Assembly (NCBI RefSeq): GCF_023015885.1
Contig: NZ_JALKBE010000003.1
Coordinates: 62,001-126,000, forward strand
Direction: 5' to 3'
Length of the DNA: 64,000 nucleotides
Source: Aliiroseovarius sp. S1123
GTDB taxonomy: Bacteria; Pseudomonadota; Alphaproteobacteria; Rhodobacterales; Rhodobacteraceae
Positions within the stretch are counted from its first letter, which is position 1. Every line of letters starts with the position of its first letter. Of this stretch, positions 36,458 to 55,741 are shown piece by piece. The translations under genes and the position numbers were made by a program. Under the pieces are notes generated by a model. It was not told the origin of the DNA. It ran no database searches and worked only from the letters and a program-made list of their open reading frames with translations.

Positions 36458-36534
36458 CGGGCTGTAGCGCAGCCTGGTAGCGCACCTGCTTCGGGAGCAG
36501 GGGGTCGGAGGTTCGAATCCTCTCAGCCCGACCA
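36458..36534 (+). tRNA. tRNA-Pro, anticodon CGG
   Basis: 77 bases including an encoded CCA. The acceptor stem CGGGCTG pairs perfectly with CAGCCCG. The anticodon stem CCTGC/GCAGG encloses the loop TTCGGGA, giving anticodon CGG at 36492-36494. The T arm GGAGG/CCTCT with GTTCGAATC is standard. Preceded by a consensus -10 and followed by a terminator. Confidence 0.96.
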
Positions 36535-37676: not shown

Positions 37677-38105
37677 GTGCACGCTTCGTCTAATGTTGTT
37701 GATATTCAGGCAAACGCAGCCTTTGTCATGCGCAAAGGTCTCAGCGATAGGTTGAAGTATATCAGCGCAGAGTACCCTCAGGTCGGATTTGGCGTCTCGC
37801 TTGTTACCAAGCGCGGAGACCATTATATGCTCGCCAATCCCAAGATGGCACTTCCTGCCAACAAAGCGGATGGCTTTCCGAAGGGCGAACAGGTCGCCAA
37901 ATACGAAGGCGGCGAGCGATTTCAGACCATTCAAGTCTTTGCGGACATACCGGACGGGCCCGTCCGTCAGGATCTGCCAGAAATGCAGCTGATCCTTGAT
38001 GTCATCAATCTGGTAGAGCTGATCGACGCACCGTCGGCCCTGCCCGCCGGACAACTGCAAACGGAAACTGGTCAGAGGAACGTCTTAAACGGTACCGAGG
38101 GTTAA
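37677..38105 (+). CDS. Small protein opening the GTPase block, unknown
   Basis: 142 residues from a GTG start preceded by GAGGA with 7-base spacing. A TTG at 37593 would add 28 residues without the look of a real N-terminus. No signal peptide or membrane span. Mixed alpha/beta pattern, with hydrophobic strands around VGFGVSLVTKRGDHYMLA and FQTIQVFADIP, and a helix MQLILDVINLVELIDA near the end. It precedes the first GTPase by 3 bases, so it is likely a component or adaptor of that system. Family not recognised. Confidence 0.65.
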   Translation: MHASSNVVDIQANAAFVMRKGLSDRLKYISAEYPQVGFGVSLVTKRGDHYMLANPKMALPANKADGFPKGEQVAKYEGGERFQTIQVFADIPDGPVRQDLPEMQLILDVINLVELIDAPSALPAGQLQTETGQRNVLNGTEG

Positions 38106-38108
38106 GCC

Positions 38109-40121
38109 ATGGCGCGAAACATACATCTCCTGGCAACAGGCAATGAAGCTTTGGACCCGCTGAACGATGCGTTTGGCGGGTTGAACGCGACTATTGACCA
38201 GCTCACAGCGATCGCAGACGCACGCAGTTCGGCCCGACTGGCCAAACTGAAATCGCGGATGGACGAATTCACCGCCAACGTGACCTTTGTGGGTCAGGTG
38301 AAGGCGGGCAAGTCGTCGCTTGTGAACATCATGGCAGGACGCCCCGGGCTGCTGCCGTCGGACGTCAACCCGTGGACCTCGGTCGCGACGACCCTGCACG
38401 TGAACACCCGGACGCCGGGCGACACGAAAGCAAAGTTTACCTTCTTCGATCACGATGAATGGCAGAACCTGACCGCCGGTGGCGGACGTCTGGGTGAACT
38501 GGCCCACCGTGCTGGTGCCGATGACGAAATGGACGACATTCGGAAGCAGGTTGAAGATATGAAGGCCCGCTCGGAAGAGCGGTTGGGCAAGCATTTCGAC
38601 CTGATCATGGGTCAAAGCCACTCGTATGACTATTTCGACGACGATCTGGTGCAGCGCTATGTCTGCATGGGCGACGAAGATGACCCGGATATCAGCGCCG
38701 ATAGCGGACGCTTTGCCGATGTGACCAAAACAGCCGAACTGTATTTGGACATCCCGCAATACCCGATGGCGATCAATCTGAGCGACACGCCGGGTGTGAA
38801 CGATACGTTCATGGTCCGCGAGCAGATCACCCTGCGCAGCCTGCGCGGGTCCGAGGTCTGCGTGGTTGTGATGGCCGCCAGCCAGGCTTTGACCACGATG
38901 GATCTGGCGCTGATGCGCATGATCTCGCAGTTTGAGAACCGCCAGATCATCCTGTTCATCAACCGTATCGACGAGCTGCACGACCCGGTCCGCGAAGTTC
39001 CGGAAATCCGCGACCGCGTGACCGAGATGCTGAAGCAAAGCAGCATCAACGCCGATGCGGGCGTGATCTTTGGCAGCGCGCTCTGGGCTGAAGCCGCCCT
39101 GACCGGAGATTCTGACGTTCTGACCGATCACGCAGCATCGTCCTTGAACAAGCTTTATGCGGCCGCCGGGTTTGACAGTGGCAGCGTGACGCTTGAACAG
39201 ATCTGGGCCCTGTCCGGTCTGCCGGATCTGCTTCTGTCGATCAACGAACGCATCGCCGAGGGCGCAGGCGCGCGCCTGTGCAACAAGGTGCGTAACCGCG
39301 CCCGCAACATGGCCAGCCAGATCCGTGCAACCTCGGTCGCCAAGACGCTGACCGACACGGGCACGATGGTCTATGATATGGACGGCAAAACGCCCGAAGA
39401 CGCCATCCGCACCGTCGCATCCGAATACGAGAATCGCGTGGCTGACCTGACCGCATCGCTGCGGGACAAGGTGATGCAGCGTCTGGCTCGCACCGAAGAA
39501 AACTTCATCAAGCGTGCTACTGAATCGCTGCTTGAGCATCTTGAACAGCACGGCGAAGACGGCACGTGGCAATACGACCCGGCCGGGTTCCGTGCGCTTC
39601 AGAAATCCGCCTATTTCAACTTTGCCCGCGCCATGCGCAAAGAGGTCGGCGCGCTCTATGCCTCGGCCGCACATGACGTCGAGGCCGTGTACCGCAACAT
39701 GCTGGGGCAGCACCTTGGCGAGTTCTCGATCGAACCGCCGATCGTGCCCAACGTCCCGCCCCCCCTTGCAATCGGACGCACCATCGCGCTGGATCTGCAA
39801 AGCACATGGTGGCGCCGCTGGTGGCAGCGTCGTCGGGGTGCGGCCTCGTACGCCGCGGATTACACCCGGCTTGTGGCATCCGAAGCCAGCTCGATTACCA
39901 AGGACATTGAAGAACACCAGATCGCAGCTGTGTTGGAAAACGCCCGCGCGTCGCTGGCAGAGTTCATGGTAGAGCAGCAGGAAACACTTCTGGGAATTTC
40001 ACAGACGGCTCAGGCGCAAATGGACGAGGAAGCCTTGAAAGCGGCTGGCCTTCAGCCTGCGAAATCCCCAGACGAACTTTTGGGAGACATCCTGAAGGAT
40101 CTTGGCACCGAGGCGGCCTGA
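38109..40121 (+). CDS. Dynamin-like GTPase 1 (large)
   Basis: 670 residues. G1 P-loop GQVKAGKS at 62-69, G3 DTPG at 226-229 and G4 NRID at 285-288; a Thr in DVNPWTSVATT (about 85-95) fits switch I. The G domain is followed by a long helical region (about 375-670), as in bacterial dynamin-like proteins that remodel membranes. At 567-576 the run WWRRWWQRRR is strikingly aromatic and basic and could be a membrane-contact tip. Closely related to the GTPase at 43168. It starts 3 bases after the first gene and ends 4 bases before the next GTPase. Confidence 0.85.
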   Translation: MARNIHLLATGNEALDPLNDAFGGLNATIDQLTAIADARSSARLAKLKSRMDEFTANVTFVGQVKAGKSSLVNIMAGRPGLLPSDVNPWTSVATTLHVNTRTPGDTKAKFTFFDHDEWQNLTAGGGRLGELAHRAGADDEMDDIRKQVEDMKARSEERLGKHFDLIMGQSHSYDYFDDDLVQRYVCMGDEDDPDISADSGRFADVTKTAELYLDIPQYPMAINLSDTPGVNDTFMVREQITLRSLRGSEVCVVVMAASQALTTMDLALMRMISQFENRQIILFINRIDELHDPVREVPEIRDRVTEMLKQSSINADAGVIFGSALWAEAALTGDSDVLTDHAASSLNKLYAAAGFDSGSVTLEQIWALSGLPDLLLSINERIAEGAGARLCNKVRNRARNMASQIRATSVAKTLTDTGTMVYDMDGKTPEDAIRTVASEYENRVADLTASLRDKVMQRLARTEENFIKRATESLLEHLEQHGEDGTWQYDPAGFRALQKSAYFNFARAMRKEVGALYASAAHDVEAVYRNMLGQHLGEFSIEPPIVPNVPPPLAIGRTIALDLQSTWWRRWWQRRRGAASYAADYTRLVASEASSITKDIEEHQIAAVLENARASLAEFMVEQQETLLGISQTAQAQMDEEALKAAGLQPAKSPDELLGDILKDLGTEAA

Positions 40122-40125
40122 TACA

Positions 40126-41745
40126 ATGAAAGATCATATCCCCCAGCGTATTGTCACAGCAGAACAATGGAAGCGCCTGAAGCGCTGGTCACACCGTAAG
40201 CCGGTCTTCGCCCTGATGGGCGAGTTCAGCGCCGGCAAATCGACGCTTTTGAACTTCCTTCTGAAAAAGGAAACCCTGCCCACGCAGGTCACGGCGACGC
40301 AATTGCCGCCCATCTGGTTCTCGTGGGGCAACAAGCAGTCCTATGTGCAGAACTTGGATGGCAGCCGCGAACCGATCGAGTTGAGCGAGATTGGCGAAGT
40401 TGGCGTTCAAGGCGCGCATTTCGTGCGGGTCTATCTGGAAGCCGAGATTCTTGAGGCTGTGGACCTGATCGACACGCCCGGCATCTCGGACCCGAAGATC
40501 TCTGAAGACGTCTGGCGACGCGCGGTGGGGCAGGCCAACGGCGTGTTGTGGTGTACCCACTCGACACAGGCGTGGCGCGAAACCGAACGCGCGACCTGGG
40601 CCTCGTTGCCCGACCGTCTGCGCCAGAACTCGCTTCTGCTGGTGACGCGCGCCGATGCGTTGAACGAGACCGATCAAGCCAAGGTGCTGCGCCGTATCAA
40701 CCGTGAAACGGGCGAGATGTTCCGCCGCACGATCATGATCTCGGCCCGCGATGCGATCATTGCGCGTGAGCACGAAGAGCATGCACATCTGTGGGCCGGA
40801 AGCGGTGGCGGCAAGCTGGTGGACAACTTCCTGACCATCACCGCCGACATCATGGCCGCACGCGCCGAGATGCTGGCACGCTATCAGAAAGACGGCTCCA
40901 GCGAAGAGATGAGCACAGATGCGCTTCATTTGGGCGAGGAGACCTCGACCCGCATCTGGAGCCCGCCCGTCATGTCGGTCGCAGATGATGCCGAGCCAGC
41001 ACTCGGCGATGCAGGCAACGTCGTGCGCATTCGCCCTGCCCGCCCGCGTCGCGGTGTTCAGGCCGGCGACACATCCGAGACCCGGCAGCGCATTGATGCA
41101 GACGAAGCCGAAAAGCTGCGCGCGAAGGTGCAAGCAGACGCGCATGAAGAACAGGATATGCGCGAGCTGAAATCCGTCTTCCATGTCGAGGAGCCCGCAC
41201 AGACGGATGCGGTTACCGAGGACGACACGCCGGAAACTTTGACTCTGGTAGATGCGCTTCCTGAACAGCGAGACGACTTCGATGACGAGACCGCGACTGA
41301 ATGGGATGAGGCCGAACCGCTTGACGCCCAAGACGATGTGGCGATCGATGAGACCGAAGAGCCCGCTCAGGACATTGAAGAGGATGATTCCGAACAGCTA
41401 ATCGCGTCGATCACCGATCTGGTTTCCGACCGGGGGCAGGACTATGAAGATCAGGCAGAAGATGCCGACGAGGCGCTTACCGCCGAGACGATCGCCTTGG
41501 CCTCGAGCCAATCTGTCTTCAGCATCCCGGAAACTCAACCGCTAAGCGCATCGGAAGCGTGGGCCGAACACCTGTCGACCCTTGGCGATGTTGACGACCC
41601 GGCTGCATTGCACGAGGAATTCGTAACCTTCCTGAAGCTTTTCGACGACCGCGCCCGCGAACACCATGCGCAGCAGTCCGAAGGCGCCTTGCAATCTCTC
41701 AGCGACACGGCATCTGACAGCGATACTGTCTGGCACGTGCTTTAA
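40126..41745 (+). CDS. Dynamin-like GTPase 2 (short partner) with acidic tail
   Basis: 539 residues from ATG at 40126 (a TTG 24 bases earlier is possible). P-loop GEFSAGKS at 32-39, DTPG at 116-119, and TRAD at 174-177 as an altered G4. A marked WCTHSTQAWRETER segment follows G3 and is shared with the GTPase at 45198. After about residue 270 the protein becomes long, acidic and low in complexity (many Asp, Glu, Thr), probably disordered. Bacterial dynamins often work as two adjacent unlike subunits; this arrangement fits that. Confidence 0.8.
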   Translation: MKDHIPQRIVTAEQWKRLKRWSHRKPVFALMGEFSAGKSTLLNFLLKKETLPTQVTATQLPPIWFSWGNKQSYVQNLDGSREPIELSEIGEVGVQGAHFVRVYLEAEILEAVDLIDTPGISDPKISEDVWRRAVGQANGVLWCTHSTQAWRETERATWASLPDRLRQNSLLLVTRADALNETDQAKVLRRINRETGEMFRRTIMISARDAIIAREHEEHAHLWAGSGGGKLVDNFLTITADIMAARAEMLARYQKDGSSEEMSTDALHLGEETSTRIWSPPVMSVADDAEPALGDAGNVVRIRPARPRRGVQAGDTSETRQRIDADEAEKLRAKVQADAHEEQDMRELKSVFHVEEPAQTDAVTEDDTPETLTLVDALPEQRDDFDDETATEWDEAEPLDAQDDVAIDETEEPAQDIEEDDSEQLIASITDLVSDRGQDYEDQAEDADEALTAETIALASSQSVFSIPETQPLSASEAWAEHLSTLGDVDDPAALHEEFVTFLKLFDDRAREHHAQQSEGALQSLSDTASDSDTVWHVL

Positions 41746-41750
41746 TACAG

Positions 41751-42176
41751 ATGATACATACCAACACTTTGGCTGACGTAACATTGTCCCTGGACGATGC
41801 GCTTTCAGCGGGCATGCAAACCGTCCCGAACTGCGTTGCGGCCGGATATGTCGACATGCAAACGGGGTTCCTTCTGGGCGTTCAGGGGCGTGATGACGAC
41901 AGCATTGCCGCGCTCGAGGCCATGTCTACCTCGATCGCCAACCTGATCCTGGGCCGCGGCGTGAACGCTGTCGAACAGCTTTTGTCCGGCGGCGGCACCC
42001 AAGGCGCAGGCTTTGGCGAGATCGCAATCTGCTCGGGCAAGCGCCTGTATCTGCTGCTCAGACGTCCAGATCAGCCGGATCACCTGATTTGCTATGTCTC
42101 GGATGACAGCACAAATGTTGGGCTGGCTCTGGCCAAGTCCGCGGCGAATATGAAACTGATCTCGGCTGCGGTGTAG
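41751..42176 (+). CDS. Roadblock/LC7-like protein
   Basis: 141 residues, cytoplasmic. The pattern CVAAGYVDMQTGFLLGV, then a helix LEAMSTSIANLILG, strands GFGEIAICSGKRLYLLLRR and LICYVSDDSTNVGLALAKSAA resembles the Roadblock/LC7 fold, in which small proteins such as MglB bind and regulate Ras-like GTPases. Placed between two GTPase pairs, 5 bases after one and 6 before the next gene. The family call is by pattern, not search. Confidence 0.55.
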   Translation: MIHTNTLADVTLSLDDALSAGMQTVPNCVAAGYVDMQTGFLLGVQGRDDDSIAALEAMSTSIANLILGRGVNAVEQLLSGGGTQGAGFGEIAICSGKRLYLLLRRPDQPDHLICYVSDDSTNVGLALAKSAANMKLISAAV

Positions 42177-42182
42177 ACAGAA

Positions 42183-43091
42183 ATGACTGTAATCCAATCA
42201 GATGTCCTTGACCGGCTTGAACGCATTGTGGACGACGCAAAGGCGCGGCGTGAACAAAGCGTGCAACTGACCCAAGATACGGCCGAGACCCGCAGCAAAG
42301 CAGCGCTTGAGGTCGTGCGGACAACGTTTTTGCCGCGTATTGTTCAGATCAGCAATGATCAGGACGACGCGATAAAACTGGCAGTCAACAATGGCCGCGT
42401 GGCCGCCATGACTGAGGCCCTGATGGACGGGGTACAGGCAACCCCGCCTGAAGCCACCGCCCTGAATATTGCCCAGATCCTGAACACGGTTTGCTCTGGT
42501 TCTGGGGTACGGATGCTCAGCGCTCCGACCGAAGAGGGTGCGGACATTGTCGCAACGGGTTTGCCGGTTTCTGCGATTGACGCAGCCCTGAATACGCTTG
42601 AACCCACCAGCCCGCCTCCGGCGCCGTCCGAACCCTCGGGTCCGGAAGCTGTCGAACCAGACATCGACATTCCTGTCACAAAGATCGCCGCGCCAGCACC
42701 ATCTTCAGAACCGACCACAGAAACACCGGCCGACGACGAGTTTGGCGATGGCATTGCCGCTCGGTTTTACCAAAGCGCAACGCGGGTCAGCGATCAGCGG
42801 ATCCTGATCCGTCACACAGACTCTACCGTTGCCGGTCCGGACGGTATTCTGTCGCAGAATTTAGACGCTGTTCAGCAGCTGATGGACGACCTGTCAGCCT
42901 GGGACGCTGACCACGATGAAAAAGATGCGGGCCCACAGCTGATTATCCTGCGCGCTCAGGATCAGGATATGCCCAGTTTGACCATCTGTCGCGACGCGGA
43001 TGCGACAACTATGACCGCCCACCACACGCGTAGGTTGGGTTCGGCCGTACAATTGTGGAAATCATTGACTTCGAACGAGAATTTTAGCTGA
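42183..43091 (+). CDS. Protein of unknown function within the GTPase block
   Basis: 302 residues. The first 80 are helical and charged (LDRLERIVDDAKARREQSVQL), about 135-185 is a Pro/Ala/Glu-rich linker (EPTSPPPAPSEPSGPE), and the last 110 form a compact domain with GPQLIILRAQDQDMPSLTI. No signal peptide or TM. The two-domain layout with a flexible linker suggests a scaffold. Not recognised. A 76-base gap follows before the next GTPase. Confidence 0.6.
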   Translation: MTVIQSDVLDRLERIVDDAKARREQSVQLTQDTAETRSKAALEVVRTTFLPRIVQISNDQDDAIKLAVNNGRVAAMTEALMDGVQATPPEATALNIAQILNTVCSGSGVRMLSAPTEEGADIVATGLPVSAIDAALNTLEPTSPPPAPSEPSGPEAVEPDIDIPVTKIAAPAPSSEPTTETPADDEFGDGIAARFYQSATRVSDQRILIRHTDSTVAGPDGILSQNLDAVQQLMDDLSAWDADHDEKDAGPQLIILRAQDQDMPSLTICRDADATTMTAHHTRRLGSAVQLWKSLTSNENFS

Positions 43092-43167
43092 ATACTATGA
43101 AACGCCCGCTTCTCACGTTGGGATTTGGGTCTGCAGTTTGCTTTGAATAACGAGTTGGAAAACAATA

Positions 43168-45201
43168 ATGGACGAGGGACGCCGACAGGAACTGCTTCGG
43201 ATCGCCGAACAGATGTCACAAACGGCTAGCGATGAAGCCAAGCCGTTCATTGCGCGCATTCTGGCGGACCTGAAATCGTTGAAGCCCGGCGTCGCCTTTG
43301 TTGGCCAGATTAAGGCGGGAAAATCGCGCCTGATCAATGGCTTTACCGGGCAAGCGAACTTCTTGCCCTCGGATGTAAACCCTTGGACCACCGTTGTGAC
43401 CGATATGCATTTCGGGCATCCGTCCGGACGCACCAACGGCGGAATCTTCCATTTCTTTGACAATGCCCAATGGCAGGCACTTTTGTCCGAAGGGGACGAA
43501 ATTCGTGATCTGCTGCCAGATGGCGAAGACAACTACAAGCGCCAGATCATCGAAGAGCAGATCGAAGCGATGAAAAGTCGGGCGAAGGCGCGGCTTGGTG
43601 CCCGCTATGAGGAGCTGCTGGGGACATCCCATGACCTTGAGGACCTGACGCAAGACGATCTGGCGCGCTATGTCAGTGCCGGCGCCGATCCCGAGGATGA
43701 GCCGACGCAGCGCGATGACGAAGCCCCCTATTACAGCGACCTCACCCGCAAGGCCGAGGTCTTTTTCAAGCAGGGCCATTTCGCGTTCCCCCTGACCGTG
43801 ACCGATACGCCGGGCATCAATGACCCGCTATTGATCCGGGAAGAGATCTCGCACCAGTATCTGCGCAATTCCGACTTCTTCGTCGTGGTTCTGTCGGCAC
43901 ATCAGGCGCTGTCACAAGCGGATCTGAAGCTGCTTCGTCTAATGCAAGCGCTTGAGCTGGGGCAGATGGTGGTCTTCGTGAACCGGGTGGACGAGCTGAA
44001 CCGAGGCGTCGAGGATGCCGCCAGTGTGCACGCGGACGTGCATGCCGGGCTTGAGCGCGCGCTGGACAGCAGCCGCATGACGGTGATCATGGGCAGCGCG
44101 CAGTGGGCGCATTATGCGCTGACCGGGGACTTAACCGGCATCGACCACGACCAGATTTTGGCGTGGCTGAAAGCCCATCCGCAGAAAATGCAGCGTTTCC
44201 TTGAGGGCGTTGAACAACTGAAACAAACCAAGCGGGACGGCGCCGCCGAAAGCGCGTTGCGCTTGGCCGCCATGATTGCCTCGGGCCTGCCTAACCTGCG
44301 CAGCCACGTGATGCGCGAAATGTCGATCGGCCCCCGCAGCGAACGCATTCACATCGCGGCGCAGCATCTGCGCAACTTCGCCAATAGCGAGCTGGAGCGC
44401 CGCCGCGTGCACCTGAAGATCGTCGACGACGATACCGCGGACGCCCATTTCGCCCAGACCGAGGACCAAATCCGCACGCAGCTAAGCCAGATGGTGATAA
44501 ATACCAAGGATAGCCTTGCCAGTGGAGTCCAGCATGACATGGCCGCGCTGCGGCAAGAGCTTGATGACATCGTCCGGTCCATGGTCTCGACCGTGGTACA
44601 GGGCGAGGATGGCGTGTCGCCGTTGTTGTCCACCGGCAGCGCGACTGAACTGGACTTTAGCGACCTGCGGCAGGCGATGCGCGACCGGCTGCTGGATGCG
44701 GCACATGCCCAGCGCCAGAAAATGCTGAACGAGCTGTTTGCCTTGGACATGCGGTCCAACGCTGCGCTTACGGAAGGCGACTCAGACGCTACGGACACCC
44801 CTCTGAATGTGGATGCCAGCGCGCTGCGTTGGTACCGCCCGGACACCAGCATTCTGACCCGCGGCATCACGGTCGAACTGCGCGTCTCGTGGTTGGCACG
44901 CCTGCTAAAGCAGCAATCCGTCGTGACCCGCGCGGAACAGATGATCACACGCGAGTTTCAGTCGATTGCAACCGACTTGGTGAACCAGTTTCAATCCGAC
45001 CTGACGGGACGTCTGAATACGGTGATCGAGCATCATCTGGCAGTGCTGGCGACCCGCTTCGAAGAGCTGGACAAGACCCAACCTGCCTCTCGCCCGGACG
45101 CACATGCGGCATTGGAAAACGCCAAGAGGCTTGCAAATGAGTTGGAAGAGTTGTTCGAAGAGGGTATCGAACCTGTACAGCAACTCGAGGCGGTAACGTG
45201 A
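43168..45201 (+). CDS. Dynamin-like GTPase 3 (large)
   Basis: 677 residues. GQIKAGKS at 46-53, DTPG at 213-216 and NRVD at 272-275. It shares with GTPase 1 the blocks LPSDVNPWT, FFDNAQWQ and VTDTPGINDP, so the two are paralogues. The long helical C-terminal part has VSWLARLLKQQS in the place where GTPase 1 has its Trp/Arg run, again aromatic and basic but milder. It overlaps the next gene by 4 bases (GTGA). Confidence 0.84.
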   Translation: MDEGRRQELLRIAEQMSQTASDEAKPFIARILADLKSLKPGVAFVGQIKAGKSRLINGFTGQANFLPSDVNPWTTVVTDMHFGHPSGRTNGGIFHFFDNAQWQALLSEGDEIRDLLPDGEDNYKRQIIEEQIEAMKSRAKARLGARYEELLGTSHDLEDLTQDDLARYVSAGADPEDEPTQRDDEAPYYSDLTRKAEVFFKQGHFAFPLTVTDTPGINDPLLIREEISHQYLRNSDFFVVVLSAHQALSQADLKLLRLMQALELGQMVVFVNRVDELNRGVEDAASVHADVHAGLERALDSSRMTVIMGSAQWAHYALTGDLTGIDHDQILAWLKAHPQKMQRFLEGVEQLKQTKRDGAAESALRLAAMIASGLPNLRSHVMREMSIGPRSERIHIAAQHLRNFANSELERRRVHLKIVDDDTADAHFAQTEDQIRTQLSQMVINTKDSLASGVQHDMAALRQELDDIVRSMVSTVVQGEDGVSPLLSTGSATELDFSDLRQAMRDRLLDAAHAQRQKMLNELFALDMRSNAALTEGDSDATDTPLNVDASALRWYRPDTSILTRGITVELRVSWLARLLKQQSVVTRAEQMITREFQSIATDLVNQFQSDLTGRLNTVIEHHLAVLATRFEELDKTQPASRPDAHAALENAKRLANELEELFEEGIEPVQQLEAVT

Positions 45202-46511
45202 TCAACTTTCCAGAAACAGATTCGGTTCTTGGTCAACTGAAGGCGTTTCTTTCTAAAACCGAAGCTGCGCCACGCTCGGCCCCGCTGGATGGCATGCGCA
45301 CGCTGGCACGGGGTCACATCGACCAGTTGACCAGCGCCGTGACCATCGGATTTGCGGGCGAGTTTGGGGCGGGCAAGTCCAGTCTGGCCAATATGCTGGC
45401 CGGCACCGACATCCTGCCCACGGGGCCGCAGCACCTGAAGCTACCCTTGGTGATCGTGCAATACGCGCCCGAACCCGAGACCACGGTGGGTTGGTGGGAA
45501 AAGGCCTCTGAGAGTTTTCCCGGGATCGATCTGGAAAAAGCGGCCGAGTACGCGCCCGACTTTATTTCGGTGGGGTTGCCGTCTGAAGCCCTGCAAGAGC
45601 TGGTGCTGTTCGACCTTCCCGGATCAGGCGCTTTGGATGAAAGCTATAAGCAGACACTGGAACTTCTGAAATTCGTCGATTGCGCGATTTGGTGTACCAA
45701 CGGCACGAACGCTTGGCGCGAAACCGAGCGGTTTCTGTGGTCACATGTCGCCAAAGAGCTTCAGGAAAACAGCCTGCTTGCGGTGACCCACACAGACCTG
45801 ACCGCGGTGCAGGAAGCTTTGCCGCGACTTATGCCCCATCTGGAACGCGACAGCGACGGCATGTTTCAGGCCGTTGTTCCCATCGGTACGCCCGTCGCCG
45901 TACAGGCGATGGCGCAAGAGCCGGAACCCGATTTCGAACTGTGGTCCGAATGTGGCGGAGAAGATCTGGCGCAGCAGGTGCTGGGTCTGGCAGCCACTCG
46001 CAAAACGCGGGATCTTGAGACGGCCAAGAACGACCTTGAAACGAAGCTGACCCCCGCATTGGCAGCTCTGGGTGTCGCAGAAGAGCCCGCCGAAACCGAT
46101 CTGAAAGAAGCAGCGGCAGCTGTTGCTGCGGCCGCCGCAGCAGCAGAGAACGCGGCAGCTGCTTCCGAACCGGAGCCCGAAGAGCTCGATCTGGACAACC
46201 CCCTGCTGGACGACTGGAAGGCTGCGTTGCGTGACTTGCTTACGGACCTGCGCGACACCCCGGATCTAGAGGTTACAGACCTGCTGCAGCGCTGCCAAGA
46301 ACTGGTCGACGACTTCACCGAACAACTTGAACCCGGCCAAAGCATCACCCCCTCGGCCGAATGGATCGTGGGTGAGTTCGAGAACGCCTCGGACCTGCTG
46401 ACATTGATGCAATTCGAAGACACGCCGCATGCAGCTGAAACGGTCCTGAACATCATGACCCAGCTCAGCGACAACCTGTCTTGGGCGGGAACGCAACGCG
46501 AAGATGCATAA
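45198..46511 (+). CDS. Dynamin-like GTPase 4 (short partner)
   Basis: 437 residues from a GTG start overlapping the previous stop. GEFGAGKS at 54-61, DLPG at 139-142 and THTD at 197-200. It shares WCTNGTNAWRETER with GTPase 2, marking a second large/short pair. A poly-Ala segment near 310-325 (KEAAAAVAAAAAAAENAAAA) links to a C-terminal helical domain (DDWKAALRDLLTDLRD through MTQLSDNLSW). It closes the first block; 339 noncoding bases follow. Confidence 0.8.
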   Translation: MINFPETDSVLGQLKAFLSKTEAAPRSAPLDGMRTLARGHIDQLTSAVTIGFAGEFGAGKSSLANMLAGTDILPTGPQHLKLPLVIVQYAPEPETTVGWWEKASESFPGIDLEKAAEYAPDFISVGLPSEALQELVLFDLPGSGALDESYKQTLELLKFVDCAIWCTNGTNAWRETERFLWSHVAKELQENSLLAVTHTDLTAVQEALPRLMPHLERDSDGMFQAVVPIGTPVAVQAMAQEPEPDFELWSECGGEDLAQQVLGLAATRKTRDLETAKNDLETKLTPALAALGVAEEPAETDLKEAAAAVAAAAAAAENAAAASEPEPEELDLDNPLLDDWKAALRDLLTDLRDTPDLEVTDLLQRCQELVDDFTEQLEPGQSITPSAEWIVGEFENASDLLTLMQFEDTPHAAETVLNIMTQLSDNLSWAGTQREDA

Positions 46512-46850
46512 GCGCTGATATCGACGAGTTATCCACAGAATCGCGTCAACTTCTGGCGGAATCACCTGATCCTTCGCCGCGCAATTAACCCAAAGAAAGT
46601 CTCGGCCCTGGACGGATTCCACGACTGTCACGAAGCAGATGCCTCGTCGATCTTCTTTGATTCAGCAACAAAGAGGTTACATCGCCTATTTTGTCGCCCC
46701 GAGTCATAGCGAAGCCATGTGGCCGCCACAGTTTGGTCTCAATTCCTAAGTCTAACTTCGATGGCATCGCTGGTTGAATTTACCTTGATAAATTGACCCG
46801 ACGGTTGGGGAATCCCACTGCCAGAAAAAAAGAGACGCAGGTAAGATCAA
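46512..46850. other. Intergenic region between GTPase and kinase blocks
   Basis: No credible gene. It probably contains the promoter of the kinase block, but I cannot pick a consensus pair. It holds TCTCAATT at 46737-46744, the same octamer found at 37561-37568 before the GTPase block, and one perfect DnaA-box-like TTATCCACA at 46530-46538 that may be chance. Confidence 0.5.
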
Positions 46851-48926
46851 ATGAGCCATAATCAGGCATCGGGGCAGACAGTCGAAAACACTCAGATTGC
46901 GGCGTTGCAGCCGGGTGAAAAACTGCTGCGCGACCAGTATGAGATCATTCGCTTTCTGAACAATGGCGGTTTTGGCATCACCTATCTGGCGCGCGACAGC
47001 CTGAACCGCAATGTCGTCATCAAAGAATGCTATCCAGGTGCTTTGTGCCGCCGCGTCGGCAACAATGTCGAGGCCTCGGACCCGGCTTTTGAAGAAGATC
47101 TAAGATCAATTATTGGGCTGTTCATTCAAGAAGCCCGCAACCACGCGCGTCTGGTTCATCCGAACATCGTGAATGTGCATCAGGTCTTCGAAGACAACCA
47201 GACTGCTTATATCGCCATGGATCTGATCAATGGCGGTGATCTACTTGATTATGTTCAGGATAAACGCAACACGGTGACACCGGACTTCATCGTGAAAGTC
47301 ACCGAGAAGATGCTGTCGGCGATCTCGTTCATCCATGACAACGGGATGCTGCATCGCGATATTTCGCCCGACAACATCCTGATCGACGAAGACGGCGAGC
47401 CGGTTCTGATCGACTTCGGCGCGGCGCGGGAACGCGCGGCAAATCGCTCGGCGGCGCTGCTGACGCTGCGGGTGATCAAGGACGGATATTCTCCGCACGA
47501 ATTCTATGCGCGCGGCGCCGATCAGGACGCGACAAGCGATCTGTATGTCTTGGCGGCCACGCTCTATCACGCCATCAGCGGCGAACGCCCGATCGATGGC
47601 AAGTCGCGCCTCGAGGCATTCAACGCCGGCGAAACAGATCCCTATACACCGCTGTCTGGCCGCTTCGACGGCTATCCTGACGGCTTTCTGGAAGCCTTGG
47701 ACAAGGCGATGGAAGTGCACATCGTTAACCGTCCGCAATCAGCACTGGAATGGCTGCGGATGTTCCGAGGCCCGGCCGTTGTGTTCGAGGAATTTGGCTA
47801 TCGACCCAGCTCGGTGATCGTGGCGCTGGAACGCCCGGAAGACCGCAAAGCGGACTCGGAAAACGCCGAAGCAATCGTTACCGCGCTTCTGTCTAGCAAC
47901 GATGATGTCGCAACAACCGCGCAGTCAGAAGGGCTGACGCAGGCACAACCCAAAAGCGATCCGTCGGTCACAGTTGTCAAAAACAGCTCAGGCGGAGGCG
48001 GCAAGGCCATTGCCGGTGTGATCGCTCTGGTCGTGCTTGGTGCTGGCGGATACTTTGCCTTTAGTGGATCCGACGGAACCGATGGCTCTGACCCGGTCGA
48101 GGTAGCAGCTGTTACCCCGGCACCGGTCGCACCTGCACCGACGCCCGAACCAGAAGCCAAGCCCGTTGTTGATACGGCACCCGCTGCCGCAGTTGAAGCA
48201 TCACCCGCAGCGGCGGAAGACAGCGCGACCGATGCCATTGGCGCCGAAACCGCTGAGGCTTCTGTTCCCGCGGCACCTAAGACGGTCCCGGCACCTGCCC
48301 CCGTCGCAGCCGAGGATCTGTTAGAGCAGCAGATCGCCTTTGGCCACTGGGACGTCGAGATTCCTTTCGCCACCAGCACCCGCCGCCTGTCCACGGGCAG
48401 CGCTGTTGCGATCACCGGCGTTGATCCGAAGCAGGACTTGTCAATCATCGGGAACTGGGTCAGCCGCGGCGCCGTGATTTACACGATCAATGGTGAACCT
48501 GTCACTGACGGCGCCAGCTTTGTGACCCAAATTCTGAACGATGTTAAGGTCGATCCAGACGGGTATATCCGCGTCGGCGCGCGCTATCGCGCCAACAGCA
48601 GCACACGTCCGTTGAACGGCCTGCTTGCATTGCCCGCGATCCGTTTCTTTGGGCTTGAGAATGGCGTAACCTTGACGGCACATAACGCAGACAATGGCAA
48701 CTGGGCGGTTAGCGTCACCCGCTTGCCCGCAGACTATGCCGACGGTCTGCGCGTCGGCGACATCCTGTTGTCTGAAAACACGACGGGTCAGCAAATCAAC
48801 GCCATCGAAAGCTTTGATCGCATTCTTGAAACCCTCGTCGCTGACGGCGTGTCCCAAGCACGCCTGACCGTCTTGCGCGAAGGCGGTGAGGTTCAGGTCA
48901 CCATGCAACTTGCAGGGAGATCCTGA
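46851..48926 (+). CDS. Transmembrane Ser/Thr protein kinase with periplasmic PDZ-like domains
   Basis: 691 residues. Kinase domain about 30-310: glycine loop LNNGGFGITYLA, catalytic Lys58 in VVIKECYP, HRDISPDN (Asp170) and DFGAARE (188-190), all intact. One membrane span at about 386-405 (AIAGVIALVVLGAGGYFAF), then a Pro/Ala/Glu-rich stretch, then about 500-691 with two PDZ-like units (GAVIYTINGEPVTDGASF; GLRVGDILLSENTTGQ). Resembles PpkA-type kinases of type VI secretion regulation. The kinase faces the cytoplasm and the PDZ part the periplasm. CAGGTAAG lies upstream of the start. Confidence 0.88.
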   Translation: MSHNQASGQTVENTQIAALQPGEKLLRDQYEIIRFLNNGGFGITYLARDSLNRNVVIKECYPGALCRRVGNNVEASDPAFEEDLRSIIGLFIQEARNHARLVHPNIVNVHQVFEDNQTAYIAMDLINGGDLLDYVQDKRNTVTPDFIVKVTEKMLSAISFIHDNGMLHRDISPDNILIDEDGEPVLIDFGAARERAANRSAALLTLRVIKDGYSPHEFYARGADQDATSDLYVLAATLYHAISGERPIDGKSRLEAFNAGETDPYTPLSGRFDGYPDGFLEALDKAMEVHIVNRPQSALEWLRMFRGPAVVFEEFGYRPSSVIVALERPEDRKADSENAEAIVTALLSSNDDVATTAQSEGLTQAQPKSDPSVTVVKNSSGGGGKAIAGVIALVVLGAGGYFAFSGSDGTDGSDPVEVAAVTPAPVAPAPTPEPEAKPVVDTAPAAAVEASPAAAEDSATDAIGAETAEASVPAAPKTVPAPAPVAAEDLLEQQIAFGHWDVEIPFATSTRRLSTGSAVAITGVDPKQDLSIIGNWVSRGAVIYTINGEPVTDGASFVTQILNDVKVDPDGYIRVGARYRANSSTRPLNGLLALPAIRFFGLENGVTLTAHNADNGNWAVSVTRLPADYADGLRVGDILLSENTTGQQINAIESFDRILETLVADGVSQARLTVLREGGEVQVTMQLAGRS

Positions 48927-49123
48927 CACCAACCAATGACCTGACTGCCAGATAGTGTTTCCTGCGAGCCCATGCGGCTCGGGCGGGTGTTGGATCCGCC
49001 GCAGAAATTAGCAAGTAACCGAGTATCCACATCAAACTCTGTCTGGGCATCCTGCCCGACTGGAATGAGACGTCATGAACCAAGGCCTTTGCCTTGGCGA
49101 AGAGAGTGAAAGGTGAAGTTGCC

Positions 49124-50050
49124 ATGTTCAAATACAAAAGCCCGCTGAGCCGGCTGCTTGAAGGTAGCGCTAAACACGCGAACAAGGACGATTCCCACGA
49201 GGATGATCGCGACGAAGCCACGGAAGAGCCCATTGCCGATCTGAACGCCCTTCGTCAGGTTTTGGCCGGTGGCAATCTGGCCGCCGAAGCAGAGTCCGAG
49301 GCCGAAGACCCCGCAGAAGAGCTGATTGCGGAAGATATTCAGATCGACGAGATCCGCGCCCAAGACATCGCACCGCTCGTGGTCGAAGATGTTCCTCAGG
49401 ATATCCCTATGGTCGAGGACAGCACCCCGGCCGAGGACGATGCCGCAGATGCAATTGTGAACACGATTCTGGCTGAAGATCTGCCCGGTCGGACCCCAAG
49501 CATCGAACTGACGGAAACGCCGGAAGTCGCAGAGATCCCGCAGGTCGAAATTGCGCCCGAACCGGTACAAGCTGAAGCCCCTACCCCCTCTACCGATCGA
49601 AGCGAACGTGTCAAAACCACGTTCCTAGGCTTCGAACGTCCCGACGCGCATGTGCAGGACAGCATGGACGCTGCCCCTGTGCCGAAGCAAGCGGTTGAGC
49701 AGAACACCTTCCCAGTAGGGTGGCTGGTCGTCACTCAGGGGCCGGGTCGCGGCACCAGCTTCACGCTGATCGCAGGATTGGCTCAGATTGGCCGCAACGA
49801 TGATCAAGCGGTTCAGCTGGACTTTGGCGACAACGGCATTTCGCGTGCCGGACACGCTGTTGTGGCTTACAACACTGAAGATCGGACCTGTTACTTGGGA
49901 CATGGCGGCAAGGCCAATCTGGTCCGTCTGAATGGCGGCCCGGTTCTGAGCACGGTTCCCCTGACAAATGGCGATATGATCCGCATCAGCGACACCACCC
50001 TGCGGTTTGTGTCGTTCTGCGACGACGGCTTCGACTGGCAGGACAGCTAA
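49124..50050 (+). CDS. FHA-domain phosphothreonine-binding protein
   Basis: 308 residues. The first 200 are acidic and low in complexity. From about 205 an FHA domain follows: GRGTSFTLIAGLAQIGRNDDQ, ISRAGHAVV, LNGGPV and LTNGDMIRI. The GR, SxxH-like and NG signatures needed to bind phosphothreonine are present. ATG at 49124 has AAGGTG upstream; a TTG 30 bases earlier is possible. It follows the kinase after 197 bases that include a small CGAGCC/GGCTCG hairpin (48965-48981), and precedes the phosphatase by 2 bases. Confidence 0.85.
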   Translation: MFKYKSPLSRLLEGSAKHANKDDSHEDDRDEATEEPIADLNALRQVLAGGNLAAEAESEAEDPAEELIAEDIQIDEIRAQDIAPLVVEDVPQDIPMVEDSTPAEDDAADAIVNTILAEDLPGRTPSIELTETPEVAEIPQVEIAPEPVQAEAPTPSTDRSERVKTTFLGFERPDAHVQDSMDAAPVPKQAVEQNTFPVGWLVVTQGPGRGTSFTLIAGLAQIGRNDDQAVQLDFGDNGISRAGHAVVAYNTEDRTCYLGHGGKANLVRLNGGPVLSTVPLTNGDMIRISDTTLRFVSFCDDGFDWQDS

Positions 50051-50052
50051 GC

Positions 50053-50838
50053 ATGTTGGCCAACCCGGCATATGATATCGCCCTCGTGGCGGATCAGGGC
50101 AAACGTGACGCTCAGGAAGATTCCATTGCTGCGCGTTTCTTTGATGCCTTGGATTCCGGCTATGTCGTCATTGCAGACGGCATGGGTGGGCATGATGCCG
50201 GGGATGTTGCCTCGGGGCTTGTAAAGACCACGTGGCAGACCGAACTTGATGACCTGTTGGAAAATGGCGTGTGTGGTGATGATCAGGTGACAGAAAACCT
50301 GACCCAGATCGCACTGCGCACCAACGATGCCGTGGCAGCCTATCTGGAAGAAAACGACTCGGAACTGCGGATGGGTTCGACCCTGCTGGGCGTGCTGTTG
50401 CGCGGCAAGCATATGAACTGGGTTTCGGTCGGGGACTCGCCGCTGTATCTGTGCCGCAACGGCTTCATGATGCAGATCAACGAGGACCACTCGATGGCCC
50501 CGATGATCGACGCGCAAGTCTCGGACGGCACCCTGTCCGAGGAAGAAGCCCGCACCCATCCTGACCGCAATCAGCTGACTTCGGTGATCATGGGCGCCCC
50601 CGTGCCCAAGCTGGACTGCCCCGAAGCGCCGGTTGAACTGGCCAAAGGAGACGTGATTTTGGCAGCAAGCGATGGGCTTCAATATCTGGACAACGACCAG
50701 ATCCAGTCCCTTGCCAACACCTACAAAGATCACCCCGCCCGTGACTTGGCGGTAGCCCTTGTTCAGGCACTTCGCGCCAAATCCCACCCTGATCAGGACA
50801 ACGTCACGATCGCCGTGATCAAGCCCCTGAACATCTGA
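50053..50838 (+). CDS. PP2C-family protein phosphatase
   Basis: 261 residues, a minimal PP2C. Metal-binding aspartates occur in DQGKRDAQEDS, VIADGMGGHDAGD and HPDQDNVTIAVI; LLGVLLRGKHMNWVSVGDSPLYL is the core beta block. It would reverse phosphorylation by the upstream kinase. Two bases separate it from the FHA gene. Cytoplasmic, with no TM or signal. Confidence 0.92.
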   Translation: MLANPAYDIALVADQGKRDAQEDSIAARFFDALDSGYVVIADGMGGHDAGDVASGLVKTTWQTELDDLLENGVCGDDQVTENLTQIALRTNDAVAAYLEENDSELRMGSTLLGVLLRGKHMNWVSVGDSPLYLCRNGFMMQINEDHSMAPMIDAQVSDGTLSEEEARTHPDRNQLTSVIMGAPVPKLDCPEAPVELAKGDVILAASDGLQYLDNDQIQSLANTYKDHPARDLAVALVQALRAKSHPDQDNVTIAVIKPLNI

Positions 50839-50871
50839 AACGACGCTTCTAACTAAGGACCCAAAGGAAAT

Positions 50872-52134
50872 ATGAGAAACCTTTTCTTCGCATCCGGTCT
50901 GGCCCTGACTGCAATCTCCGGTTCTGCCTTCGCCCAAGAGGCGTGCTCGAATTATGTGGTCGAACGCGGCGACAGCCTGCGCCAGATTTCGCTGCGTGTG
51001 TACGGCAGCACGGATTTTCGGGCGATTTACAACGCGAACAAGGATGCGATCGGGAAAGACCCCAACATCATCCGCTTGGGCATGACTTTGAAGATCCCCT
51101 GCCCGACCGCGCTTGCCGCATCAAAAGCAGCGACTGTCACAGAGGCCGAGAAAATGGCCCGTGACATGTCGGCCGAGCTGATTGCCGAGGCCGAAGCCCG
51201 CGCCGCCGCAGCCATCGCCGAGGCCGAAGCCCGCGTTGCGAATGCCGAAGCAGAAGCGTTGAAAGCCAGCGAAGAAGCCGTCGCCGCAGCCAAAGCAGAA
51301 GCTGCTTCTGCCATCGAAGCCGCCCGCGCCGAAGGTGCCGCGCTGATCCGCAAGGCGGCTCGCCCCGGGACGTCGCCCGTAGACGAGCGACAGATCCTGC
51401 TAATCACCGGTGGCAACTATGCCCCCTTCACCGACGAAGCCCTGCCCAATCGCGGCCTCTATACCAAACTGGTCGAGACCGCTTTCCTGCGCGCCGCACC
51501 CGAGCAAGCCTACAAGATCCAGTTCGTAAACGACTGGAGCTCGCATCTGGACCTTCTGATGCCAACCCTTGCGTTTGATGGCACGTTCCCTTGGTCGCGC
51601 CCCAATTGCGAAGAGGCTGAAGCCCTGTCGGAAAGCGACCGCAACCGCTGCGAGACCTATGATTTCTCGAATCCGTTCTACGAGGTGGTCGACACCTACT
51701 TCGCGCTGAACGGGTCGGGCTATGAAGAGGCGATGAGCCATGCTGATTTTGCCGGGACGACGATTTGCCGCCCCGAAGGCTGGTCGTTGACCCATATGGA
51801 CGCCGTTGGCCTGTATGAACCGGCCATCACGTTGCTCCGCCCCACCGAGCCGGATGCCTGTTTCGACGCTGTCGCCAATGGCACCGCCGATATCGTCGCG
51901 ATCGAAGCTCACCTCGCCGTCGAAGCCATCAGCCGCCTTGGCTATCAGGACGAGATTCTCGAAAATCCCAACTTGGCGGCAATCAAGGGTCTGAACGTAA
52001 TGACCCATGTGAACAACCCGGACGGGGAAGCGATCCTAGAGATCCTGAACCGCGGTCTGGAAATCATGCAACAATCTGGCGAATGGCGGGACATCGTGTC
52101 CACAGCTCTGCGCCACCAAATGGAAAATAGTTAA
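50872..52134 (+). CDS. Secreted LysM plus solute-binding-domain protein 1
   Basis: 420 residues. Signal peptide ending SAFAQ; a LysM domain about 25-80 (NYVVERGDSLRQISLRVYG through LGMTLKIPC) for peptidoglycan; an Ala/Glu coiled coil about 90-165; then a type-3 solute-binding domain (LLITGGNYAPFTDEALPNRG to the end). Cysteines in RPNCEEAE, RNRCETYD, TTICRPEGW and PDACFDAV are kept in its sister, suggesting two disulfides. No permease is nearby, so sensing is more likely than transport. Confidence 0.84.
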   Translation: MRNLFFASGLALTAISGSAFAQEACSNYVVERGDSLRQISLRVYGSTDFRAIYNANKDAIGKDPNIIRLGMTLKIPCPTALAASKAATVTEAEKMARDMSAELIAEAEARAAAAIAEAEARVANAEAEALKASEEAVAAAKAEAASAIEAARAEGAALIRKAARPGTSPVDERQILLITGGNYAPFTDEALPNRGLYTKLVETAFLRAAPEQAYKIQFVNDWSSHLDLLMPTLAFDGTFPWSRPNCEEAEALSESDRNRCETYDFSNPFYEVVDTYFALNGSGYEEAMSHADFAGTTICRPEGWSLTHMDAVGLYEPAITLLRPTEPDACFDAVANGTADIVAIEAHLAVEAISRLGYQDEILENPNLAAIKGLNVMTHVNNPDGEAILEILNRGLEIMQQSGEWRDIVSTALRHQMENS

Positions 52135-52173
52135 GGCCACATCAGGCCGATAAGAATACCTGGAGGATAGGAA

Positions 52174-53283
52174 ATGTTTAAACAAACTGCGAAAAAGCTC
52201 GCAATCGCGACAACTGCCGCTGTGGCCTTGTCGGCTGGCATGGCAAGCGCTCAGCAGGCCTGTACCAACTATACCGTTGCCGACGGTGACACGCTGGCGA
52301 CGATCGCAATCACGGCCTATGGCACCTCAAACTATCAGCAAATCTTCAACGCGAACCGTAACATCGTGAGCAACCCCAACGACCTCGAACAGGGTCTGGT
52401 GCTGGCTCTGCCCTGTGAGGATGGCAGCCTGCCCGACGGTCGTTCCGCGCAAGAAGTGATCGCCGCCGAGGAAAACCGCTTCGAGACCACCCGTCGTTCG
52501 AACGTCTATGAGCCCCCCATTCGACTGGTGACCGGAGGAAACTGGGCACCATTCAGCGATGAGGGCCTGAATGGTGGTGGCTTCGTCACTCGCTTGGCAA
52601 CGACTGCTTTGCACCGCGGTGGCAACTCGCGCGATTACTCGGTCAGCTTCGTCAGTGACTGGGGCGCGCACCTTGAAACCCTGTTGCCGTTGGGTGCCTT
52701 TGACATCTCGATGGCATGGTACATCCCGGATTGCAGCAACCGCACGTATGAATGGTCCGAGAACACACACCGCCGCTGCACGCAGCTGGATGGAACCGTA
52801 AGTGTGTACGATACCGTTGTCGGTTTCTACACCTTGCCGGAAAGCGAGTACGCACGTGCTGGCAGTTTCGAAGAATTTGAAGGTGCCACAATCTGCCGTA
52901 TGGACAGCTGGTTCACCCACGACCTTGAAGAAAAAGGTATGGTTTCTCCGAGAGTCGAGATGATCCGCCCGATTACAGCGCGCGAGTGTATTGATGCAGT
53001 TCTGAACGGAACGGCAGATATTGCTTCGTTCGAAGTTCAGCTGGCCGCCGACGCAATGTCAGATATGGGTCTGACTCAAGGCGAATTGGTTGAAAACCCG
53101 TTTGTGAACACCTTTGCAAGCCTGCGTTTCGTAACGCATAAAACCAACCCCTACGGCCGCCAGTACATTGCGATGCTGAACCGCGGTCTGAACGAAATGC
53201 GTGAATCGGGTGAATGGTACGCGATCATCTCGGACACTCTGCGCGAACATAACGAGCGCATGATGGCTGCTGCCGGCAACTGA
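52174..53283 (+). CDS. Secreted LysM plus solute-binding-domain protein 2
   Basis: 369 residues. Signal peptide ending GMASAQ, LysM domain (NYTVADGDTLATIAITAYG), then the same solute-binding domain as the preceding gene (LVTGGNWAPFSDEGLNGGG) without the coiled-coil spacer. The four matched cysteines are in IPDCSNRT, HRRCTQLD, ATICRMDSW and ARECIDAV. Last gene of the block, followed by a strong terminator. Paralogue of the 50872 protein; the ligand is unknown. Confidence 0.84.
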   Translation: MFKQTAKKLAIATTAAVALSAGMASAQQACTNYTVADGDTLATIAITAYGTSNYQQIFNANRNIVSNPNDLEQGLVLALPCEDGSLPDGRSAQEVIAAEENRFETTRRSNVYEPPIRLVTGGNWAPFSDEGLNGGGFVTRLATTALHRGGNSRDYSVSFVSDWGAHLETLLPLGAFDISMAWYIPDCSNRTYEWSENTHRRCTQLDGTVSVYDTVVGFYTLPESEYARAGSFEEFEGATICRMDSWFTHDLEEKGMVSPRVEMIRPITARECIDAVLNGTADIASFEVQLAADAMSDMGLTQGELVENPFVNTFASLRFVTHKTNPYGRQYIAMLNRGLNEMRESGEWYAIISDTLREHNERMMAAAGN

Positions 53284-53308
53284 TCATCGCAGCGGATCTG
53301 AAACAGAA

Positions 53309-53334
53309 ACGGCCGGCAATTCGCCGGCCGTTTT
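53309..53334. terminator. Strong terminator closing the kinase/LysM block
   Basis: A 9-bp stem ACGGCCGGC/GCCGGCCGT, 5-base loop, then TTTTCTTTT, 25 bases after the last LysM gene. On the minus strand it also has TTTCTG after the stem and could serve the convergent CBS gene. Confidence 0.88.
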
Positions 53335-53357: not shown

Positions 53358-53765
53358 TTAGCTGTCTTGCGCCTCGGCATAGCTCAGCACCATGTCCCGC
53401 AGCGTGACCAGCCCACAGGCCGAACCATCATCGATGACCAAAGCGCGGCGGTGGTCCAGTCGCGACAGAAGTCGCACGGCGTATTTAACCGCCATGTGGT
53501 CAGCGACAGTCAGGGCGGGCTTGTCCATCACCTCGTAGACATTGGTGCGGTCCAGGGACTTGTTCACCGCAATCGCCCGCTCGGCAATCATCTCGATCGA
53601 GACGATGCCGTATTCATCATCCTCATGCCGCCGCTCGATCACCAGTGCGGTGACGCCCTTGGCGTCCATCTCGTTCACGGCTTCGCGCACGGTTGCCAGA
53701 CCACTGATCATATAGATCGTGCCCTGCATCACATCGCGGACCTTCTTCTTGTTATCGTCCATCAC
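53358..53765 (-). CDS. CBS-domain protein
   Basis: 135 residues, two CBS motifs and nothing else: residues about 10-65 (VRDVMQGTIYMISGLATVREAV, shown as two parts DVMQGTIYMI and TVREAVNEM) and about 75-130 (VYEVMDKPALTV, RRALVIDDGSACGLVTLRDM). Such proteins bind adenine nucleotides and regulate partners. Its start overlaps the PII-like stop by 4 bases, and it is the last gene of the DUF1538 operon. Confidence 0.88.
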   Translation of the reverse strand: MMDDNKKKVRDVMQGTIYMISGLATVREAVNEMDAKGVTALVIERRHEDDEYGIVSIEMIAERAIAVNKSLDRTNVYEVMDKPALTVADHMAVKYAVRLLSRLDHRRALVIDDGSACGLVTLRDMVLSYAEAQDS

Positions 53766-55639: not shown

Positions 55640-55741
55640 ATGCCCCTTCCTGTGTCGCGCCATAGGTTATGCATTCATACCAAAGATGTAACAGCCATGT
55701 GGCAGCGGCGCGAGCCATGATTGAAATCAAACTACAATGGC

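Follow-up and report, generated by a model that had tools for sequence, protein, structure and literature searches.

To our knowledge, the roles and activators of bacterial dynamins are mostly open. The closest described kind to the genes analyzed here is the pair of dynamin-like proteins Cj-DLP1/2 of Campylobacter (5owv, 5oxf; PMC6104087), whose operon contains an HcpA-like beta-lactamase, with no mention of a kinase in that paper. We studied positions 37677–53283 of a 64,000-nt stretch of DNA (the window) from contig NZ_JALKBE010000003.1 of Aliiroseovarius sp. S1123. These positions hold twelve open reading frames (ORFs), labelled g01 to g12 from 5′ to 3′, all of them open and all on the forward (+) strand, as a first-pass annotation of the window had described. 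Compared with Cj-DLP1/2, the two pairs in the window (A-type GTPases g02, A1, and g06, A2; B-type GTPases g03, B1, and g07, B2) are accompanied by kinase, FHA, PP2C, Roadblock and LysM genes. It is very probable that the twelve genes form one system. Our preferred interpretation, with a little under an even chance, is that pairs of dynamin-like GTPases and a Roadblock regulator act on membranes under a reversible Thr-phosphorylation switch. The basis in hand consists of genetic linkage, the predicted folds of g02 and g04, intact motifs and an invariant Thr. The cluster keeps bacterial dynamins beside a full control set, in which a kinase and a phosphatase occur with a probable switch residue and a Roadblock protein.

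Other bacterial dynamins are more distant or differently equipped. Sequence identity to Nostoc BDLP and mycobacterial IniA is 13–15%, and we know of no kinase set that accompanies either. LeoABC/Eleos resembles the window in its dynamin pair, in weak PADLOC matches and in the fold match of g02 to LeoA, but the window shows no split LeoB/LeoC arrangement, carries extra regulators and has a g02 family nearly restricted to one bacterial family. The LeoA and LeoBC models, which come without a PADLOC cut-off, match the GTPases weakly and fail to separate the A from the B type.

The control genes likewise have partial counterparts. Unlike the MglA/MglB polarity switch, the twelve genes include no small Ras-like GTPase according to Pfam, and their GTPases are dynamin-like. 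Type VI secretion includes a kinase/phosphatase/FHA set, a trio that the window shares; Pfam matches no structural family of that system in the twelve genes and seven flanking genes, the part of the genome searched for them. GarA/OdhI switches also combine an FHA domain with a conserved upstream Thr. The OdhI model matched g09 at an expectation value (E) of 1e-4, far under its cut-off, and g09 is therefore not assigned to this type; its Thr motif also differs from that of GarA/OdhI. In E. coli, RdcA/RdcB (YjdA/YjcZ) couple a dynamin-like GTPase to a signalling pathway, according to the accessible part of PMC6510439; their output is cyclic di-GMP, whereas the window's cluster holds a kinase, an FHA protein and a PP2C phosphatase. 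Our literature search, mostly of journals readable without subscription, returned no description of this gene combination, and the accessible part of PMC7016017 describes no such gene set. Each part is of a known kind; a control set beside a paired bacterial dynamin operon was not met in the literature searched.

Co-occurrence and linkage of the GTPase and kinase genes

The order-level sample comprised 149 genomes, with relatives of g02 reported in 62 and of the FHA protein in 60. Once short, weak matches were excluded (G110 and G134 for the A type, G064 for FHA), 60 and 59 genomes remained, respectively. Of the 149 genomes, 56 have both genes and 86 have neither (Fisher p 3e-32, uncorrected for shared descent); the A gene occurs alone in 4 and the FHA gene alone in 3. 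The GTPase and kinase blocks are thus not independent in most genomes, and the earlier view of one linked system is supported by this co-occurrence together with linkage kept through rearranged orders.

At the order level, 56 of the 69 loci (L037–L105) contain A- and B-type GTPases, kinase, FHA and PP2C on a single strand. The other 13 lack a full one-strand set; L048 and L052 among them stop at contig ends. In most loci the genes are arranged as kinase, FHA, PP2C, A and B, in many cases with a B-like GTPase ahead of A. A Roadblock-type gene (which blastp groups with g04 in 36 of the 69 loci) and then a gene of about 260 codons commonly come next. In all eight genus g21 genomes with a match, the twelve genes are complete and ordered as in the window, and one genome has an additional g12 copy; their g06 orthologues are 57–59% identical, and the data suggest that g21 is largely Ruegeria. 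In G072, most of the set was found, split by contig ends, with g01 and g04 not seen.

Orders were also counted by hand, as far as flanks reach, in the best 80 of 499 confirmed named loci. The window's order occurs in 41 of these, one without a g05 match, and the order kinase-FHA-PP2C-B-like-A-B, or a cut part thereof, in 16. In eight, the genes are linked in yet another way (convergent, divergent or permuted), and a further one, L149, is a contig of 3.4 kb. Rearranged but linked sets include a convergent one in Defluviimonas and a divergent one in Actibacterium, and Frigidibacter and Roseovarius aestuarii show further orders. On a Leisingera plasmid (71,659 bp), the set is convergent and comprises A and B, then two small genes, PP2C, FHA, two genes for substrate binding and the kinase. 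Given such varied orders with persistent linkage, the order shuffles while the gene set is mostly kept together.

Among the matches listed, the closest named relatives are Aliiroseovarius records with 90–96% identity in g02. L114 and L115 share the window's upstream transporter and cytochrome genes, and L116 has the cytochrome gene but no transporter match in its flank. In the other two sampled genomes of the genus (G012, G051), searches for g02, g06 and the FHA part found nothing; a clean empty site could not be shown in them because their relatives of the flanking Na/Pi transporter are just 25–38% identical. Matches to g02 occurred in 19 of 72,556 plasmid records. A phage origin was set aside, with 0 of 50,697 phage records matching g02. 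Beyond its own bacterial family, the A family gave only short matches (E 8e-8 or weaker) in 289 class-level and 349 phylum-level genomes, searches that scored at most 3–4 candidates per genome. By sequence search, the A family seems nearly confined to one bacterial family; possible exceptions are a Neomegalonema bin (L189) and one Calditerrivibrio plasmid record of the 19.

Switch proteins, GTPases and the Roadblock protein

Pfam matches above cut-off were Dynamin_N (g02, g03, g06, g07), Pkinase (g08), FHA (g09), PP2C (g10) and LysM (g11). The kinase/FHA/PP2C set claimed earlier is complete in sequence: the HRDxxxxN and DFG motifs of the kinase, DGMGG of the phosphatase and GR and SRxxH of the FHA domain are all intact. 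The Ser/Thr kinase g08 (46851–48926; Pkinase 105.4 bits; HRDISPDN, DFG) has a single membrane span near residue 385, in agreement with its reading as a membrane kinase, followed by about 287 residues. This tail gave weak PDZ matches, every one below cut-off, and nothing convincing against solved structures. The 308-residue g09 (49124–50050; FHA 27.3 bits) has an FHA pocket formed by GR224, SR241 and H244, preceded by the motif RVKTTFLGF, which contains Thr165. The PP2C phosphatase g10 (50053–50838; 261 residues) matches PP2C_2 at 36.4 bits and the Stp1 model at 135 bits, under the latter's cut-off of 230.

We aligned the motif in 50 FHA proteins, including g09, whose numbering is used here. 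Its positions are R (49), any residue, K (46), T (50), R/T, L/F/I/V, L/I, G (50) and F (48). Thr165, Gly169 and the GR, SR and H of the pocket are invariant in all 50, and position +3 is always Leu or Ile. The motif has an entropy of 0.5 bits versus 2.6 in the preceding 60 residues and sits in a variable linker. A looser form of the pattern occurs twice among the other ORFs of L037–L105, both times in unrelated ORFs. FHA domains recognise phospho-Thr, often selecting the residue at +3, and the natural interpretation is therefore that the protein binds itself once the neighbouring kinase has phosphorylated it. Thr165 is thus a candidate target of that kinase, and the resulting switch may, by analogy, work like GarA/OdhI.

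The annotation of four GTPases with intact P-loops holds for g02 (38109–40121; 670 residues), g03 (40126–41745; 539 residues), g06 (43168–45201; 677 residues) and g07 (45198–46511; 437 residues). Each has a P-loop (G1), a D[TL]PG and a G4-like motif; in g02 these read GQVKAGKS, DTPG and NRID. Dynamin_N scores are 45 bits for g03, 51.2 for g06 and 41.1 for g07. The first B-type protein, g03, which adjoins A in relatives, consists of a GTPase domain and an acidic low-complexity region. The second, g07, overlaps g06 by 4 bp and is closest to a GTPase-like gene that lies, in many widespread clusters, after PP2C and before A. The P-loop is retained in 82 of 82 grouped A proteins. In a plasmid table, the Ruegeria orthologues of all four are named 'dynamin family protein'.

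That these proteins are dynamin-like rests on Dynamin_N for all four and on fold for g02, the one included in the fold comparison. In the g02 model, a long helical neck/trunk surrounds the GTPase domain, and the BDLP alignment covers residues 5–670. Residues 537–577, between long helices 492–536 and 578–636, contain WWRRWWQRRR, which starts at residue 567. Trp567 is invariant in 30 of 30 aligned sequences, and a loose aromatic/aliphatic form of the motif occurs in 74 of 82 A proteins. In the predicted structure, this stretch is a candidate membrane-binding tip. No clear membrane span was found in g02, whose top hydrophobic stretch (1.71 at 249) is a GTPase-core strand in the model; weak or internal top stretches in g02, g03 and g04 suggest a cytoplasmic location.

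The 141-residue g04 (41751–42176) had been called Roadblock-like, and the fold of its structure model (predicted local distance difference test, pLDDT, 88.5) bears this out, in a structure comparison drawing on Foldseek's top 1000. Pfam does not: Robl_LC7 matched neither g04 nor any other protein of its genome. In hhalign, the g04 family scored a probability of 17 (P 0.0014) against 14 true Robl_LC7 domains, with P 0.32 and 0.13 for two other cluster families. Sequence comparison being ambiguous, the identity was settled through the predicted fold. From the linkage of their genes, g04 may act on a GTPase.

The remaining small proteins are g01 and g05. The 142-residue g01 (37677–38105; GTG start) belongs to a family without assigned fold or Pfam match; homologues of 35–39% identity occur in L037–L044, and the family is found in the twelve-gene type and the Roseovarius aestuarii locus L165. 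The 302-residue g05 (42183–43091) belongs to the same family as the protein of about 260 residues that follows the Roadblock gene in widespread clusters (hhalign probability 98.3, E 1.7e-14, for the largest groups). The cluster-86 protein of two kinase-free clusters was compared as a further g05-family member, with no support. Ruegeria orthologues of g01, g04 and g05 are recorded as 'hypothetical protein'.

Secreted partners, proposed mechanism and alternatives

The cluster ends with two putative secreted proteins, g11 (50872–52134; 420 residues) and its paralogue g12 (52174–53283; 369 residues). Both had been described as LysM solute-binding proteins. The LysM domain of g11 stands; that of g12 (15.9 bits versus a cut-off of 20.9) and SBP_bac_3 in g11 (18.5 versus 26.4) fall below cut-off. 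A solute-binding character is nevertheless suggested by the weak SBP_bac_3 match, by the homology of the two proteins (40% over residues 108–361 of g12) and by the name of their Ruegeria orthologues, 'transporter substrate-binding domain-containing protein'.

The clusters contain two kinds of kinase: one spans the membrane and, like g08, ends in a long outside tail; the other has no such tail. Elsewhere, membrane-kinase clusters adjoin a PBP_like_2-OmpA protein or PilJ-domain proteins (Pfam). Partners were scored per genome as LysM-solute-binding protein (LysM-SBP) at E < 1e-50 or PBP-OmpA at at least 43% identity. With these cut-offs, picked after the lists had been seen, a partner occurs in 28 of 28 genomes with a long-tail kinase versus 0 of 27 with the other kind. 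Kinase kinds resting on cut or missing ORFs (L059, L065, L091, L097, L207) were unchanged upon rechecking. The table leaves out G057, G060 and G133, whose kinases lie outside A loci; those of G057 and G133 have tails, and that of G060 was not seen. The two unrelated wall-anchored solute-binding proteins beside membrane kinases point to a possible sensor design.

Under our preferred interpretation, a wall or solute signal would be reported by the kinase's outside tail together with the LysM solute-binding proteins attached to the wall, and the kinase would then phosphorylate Thr165 of the FHA protein. As the motif suggests, phospho-Thr165, with Leu/Ile at +3, would dock into an FHA pocket, either that of its own molecule or that of another, thereby changing the choice of FHA partner, and PP2C would reset the switch. 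From linkage, the FHA switch may determine which state the GTPase pair adopts or where it is located, and the Roadblock protein would adjust GTP hydrolysis, much as MglB acts on MglA. Finally, to judge by the fold, the Trp/Arg-rich stretch of the A protein would enter the inner membrane and tether, fuse or seal it. A fuller version is possible but rather doubtful: a membrane-remodelling machine, nearly restricted to one bacterial family, whose dynamin pair is controlled both by Ser/Thr phosphorylation and by a Roadblock regulator. Wall-anchored solute-binding sensors of either type (LysM-SBP or PBP-OmpA) would be added interchangeably where the kinase crosses the membrane, and the machine would be a bacterial counterpart of phospho-regulated eukaryotic dynamins.

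Several observations weigh against the preferred interpretation. None of the computational results ties the FHA protein or kinase physically to a GTPase. The A type occurs without an FHA gene in 4 of 60 genomes (G019, G063, G088, G094) and FHA without A in 3 of 59 (G009, G060, G133); G057 has both halves on different contigs, and 14 of the 80 named loci have A and B with no kinase in reach, some being short contigs. The P-loop is missing from 10 of 114 B-type proteins. The tip position of the g02 Trp/Arg stretch follows from helix order rather than coordinates, and model confidence there is moderate (pLDDT about 67–72). Weaker LysM-SBP matches occur in soluble-kinase genomes (G097, E 1.9e-39; G074, 1.2e-29; G044, 6.6e-29), and distant PBP-OmpA relatives in 119 of 149 genomes at E 1e-20. 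Kinase kind switches just twice on the A tree, giving at most two independent pairs, so shared descent alone could produce the tail/partner table. In roughly half of the related clusters, the kinase lacks an outside tail and is not accompanied by a close secreted partner. Envelope sensing is therefore unlikely as the common function; the outside sensing first proposed fits the membrane-kinase branches, including the window, and not the other half.

The missing tails fit with a rather unlikely alternative in which A and B are soluble signalling GTPases that, like RdcA/RdcB, switch a membrane enzyme by contact, with the kinase/FHA/PP2C genes setting the switch. RdcA, itself a soluble dynamin-like GTPase, activates DgcE with its partner via the membrane domain of DgcE (PMC6510439, accessible part), and the absence of a clear span from g02, with its top hydrophobic stretch inside the GTPase core, agrees with such a role. 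The full-length dynamin architecture of g02, in which a conserved Trp/Arg stretch lies between long helices, does not, and Pfam finds no diguanylate cyclase among the twelve genes.

Defence against phages or plasmids by an Eleos-like dynamin pair, acting on membranes upon sensed infection under kinase control, is unlikely. It would account for the patchy distribution (60 of 149 genomes, absent from the two other sampled genomes of the genus), the occurrence on plasmids and a transfer RNA (tRNA) gene about 1.1 kb upstream. In PADLOC, the GTPases score against LeoA and LeoBC (E 2e-11 to 1e-3) and g08 against the defence kinases PD-T4-6 and MAD6; however, the former scores are low and the latter are read as the common kinase fold. 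Moreover, the seven scanned flanking genes have transport, redox and regulatory functions, none of the twelve genes matches a nuclease or integrase family in Pfam, and defence systems do not usually include solute-binding partners bound to the wall.

An outer-membrane vesicle or secretion device driven by the pair, as proposed for LeoABC, is improbable. Deletions of leo lower vesicle markers by about half (PMC4159319, accessible part), and g02 resembles LeoA by fold (4aur, Foldseek E 3.3e-8), but the same part of that source reports LeoA as periplasmic, whereas the hydrophobicity of g02, g03 and g04 suggests the cytoplasm. That the two blocks are merely neighbours, by chance or shared transfer, as the 339 bp between them and the few genomes with either half alone might suggest, is highly improbable and was set aside given the co-occurrence, the g21 order, the 56 of 69 complete loci and the linkage through rearranged orders.

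Cluster boundaries and other arrangements

From g01 to g12, the intergenic distances are 3, 4, 5, 6, 76, −4, 339, 197, 2, 33 and 39 bp. Of the overlaps described within blocks, only that of g06/g07 is real. The gaps of 339 and 197 bp divide the run and suggest, from spacing, three transcription blocks (g01–g07, g08 and g09–g12). A sigma-70 scan found no excess of promoter-like sites (4 versus 6.0 in shuffles). The strong terminator noted at the end was confirmed as an intrinsic terminator-like stem at 53306–53334 (+ strand), with 12 pairs, 8 of them G-C, and a T-rich tail; it ranks strongest among 21 scanned sites, and the surrounding region has a folding z of −2.55. The count of 21 is by itself uninformative, as shuffles yield 16.1 (standard deviation 4.4).

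The tRNA gene (36458–36531, + strand), 5′ of the block, is a possible old insertion site; a cytochrome gene separates the two, and no integrase was seen among the scanned genes. Two same-genus genomes lack the block that lies downstream of this tRNA in the window. Convergent with the block, positions 53358–55663 (− strand) encode a CBS-domain protein, a P-II-like protein and two DUF1538 proteins, a run that resembles a regulated membrane protein pair.

Kinase-free clusters are A-B-A-B arrays (L055, L056, L099, L100, L102) or single A-B pairs (L101, L103–L105). Most have a further small Roadblock-like protein (cluster 14) beside them, and a PAS-domain-type protein is additionally present in L103 and L105. 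Conversely, the A protein is absent from two G057 loci (L203, L204) that carry a kinase, an FHA gene, a Roadblock-like gene and a B-like protein, an arrangement that suggests a reduced or different use of the same parts. Genus g8 has a second PP2C set with FHA (L199, L202, L208, L209; FHA called as a gene in L208 and L209), with no dynamin genes in reach. It adjoins a 669-residue protein with an N-terminal FHA domain and a remainder read as flavoprotein-like, and L199 and L209 include a very large membrane kinase with > 600 residues past the span. In three genus g4 genomes (L053, L061, L062), a protein of ~1,400 residues with a repeat-like start is encoded next to or near the cluster.

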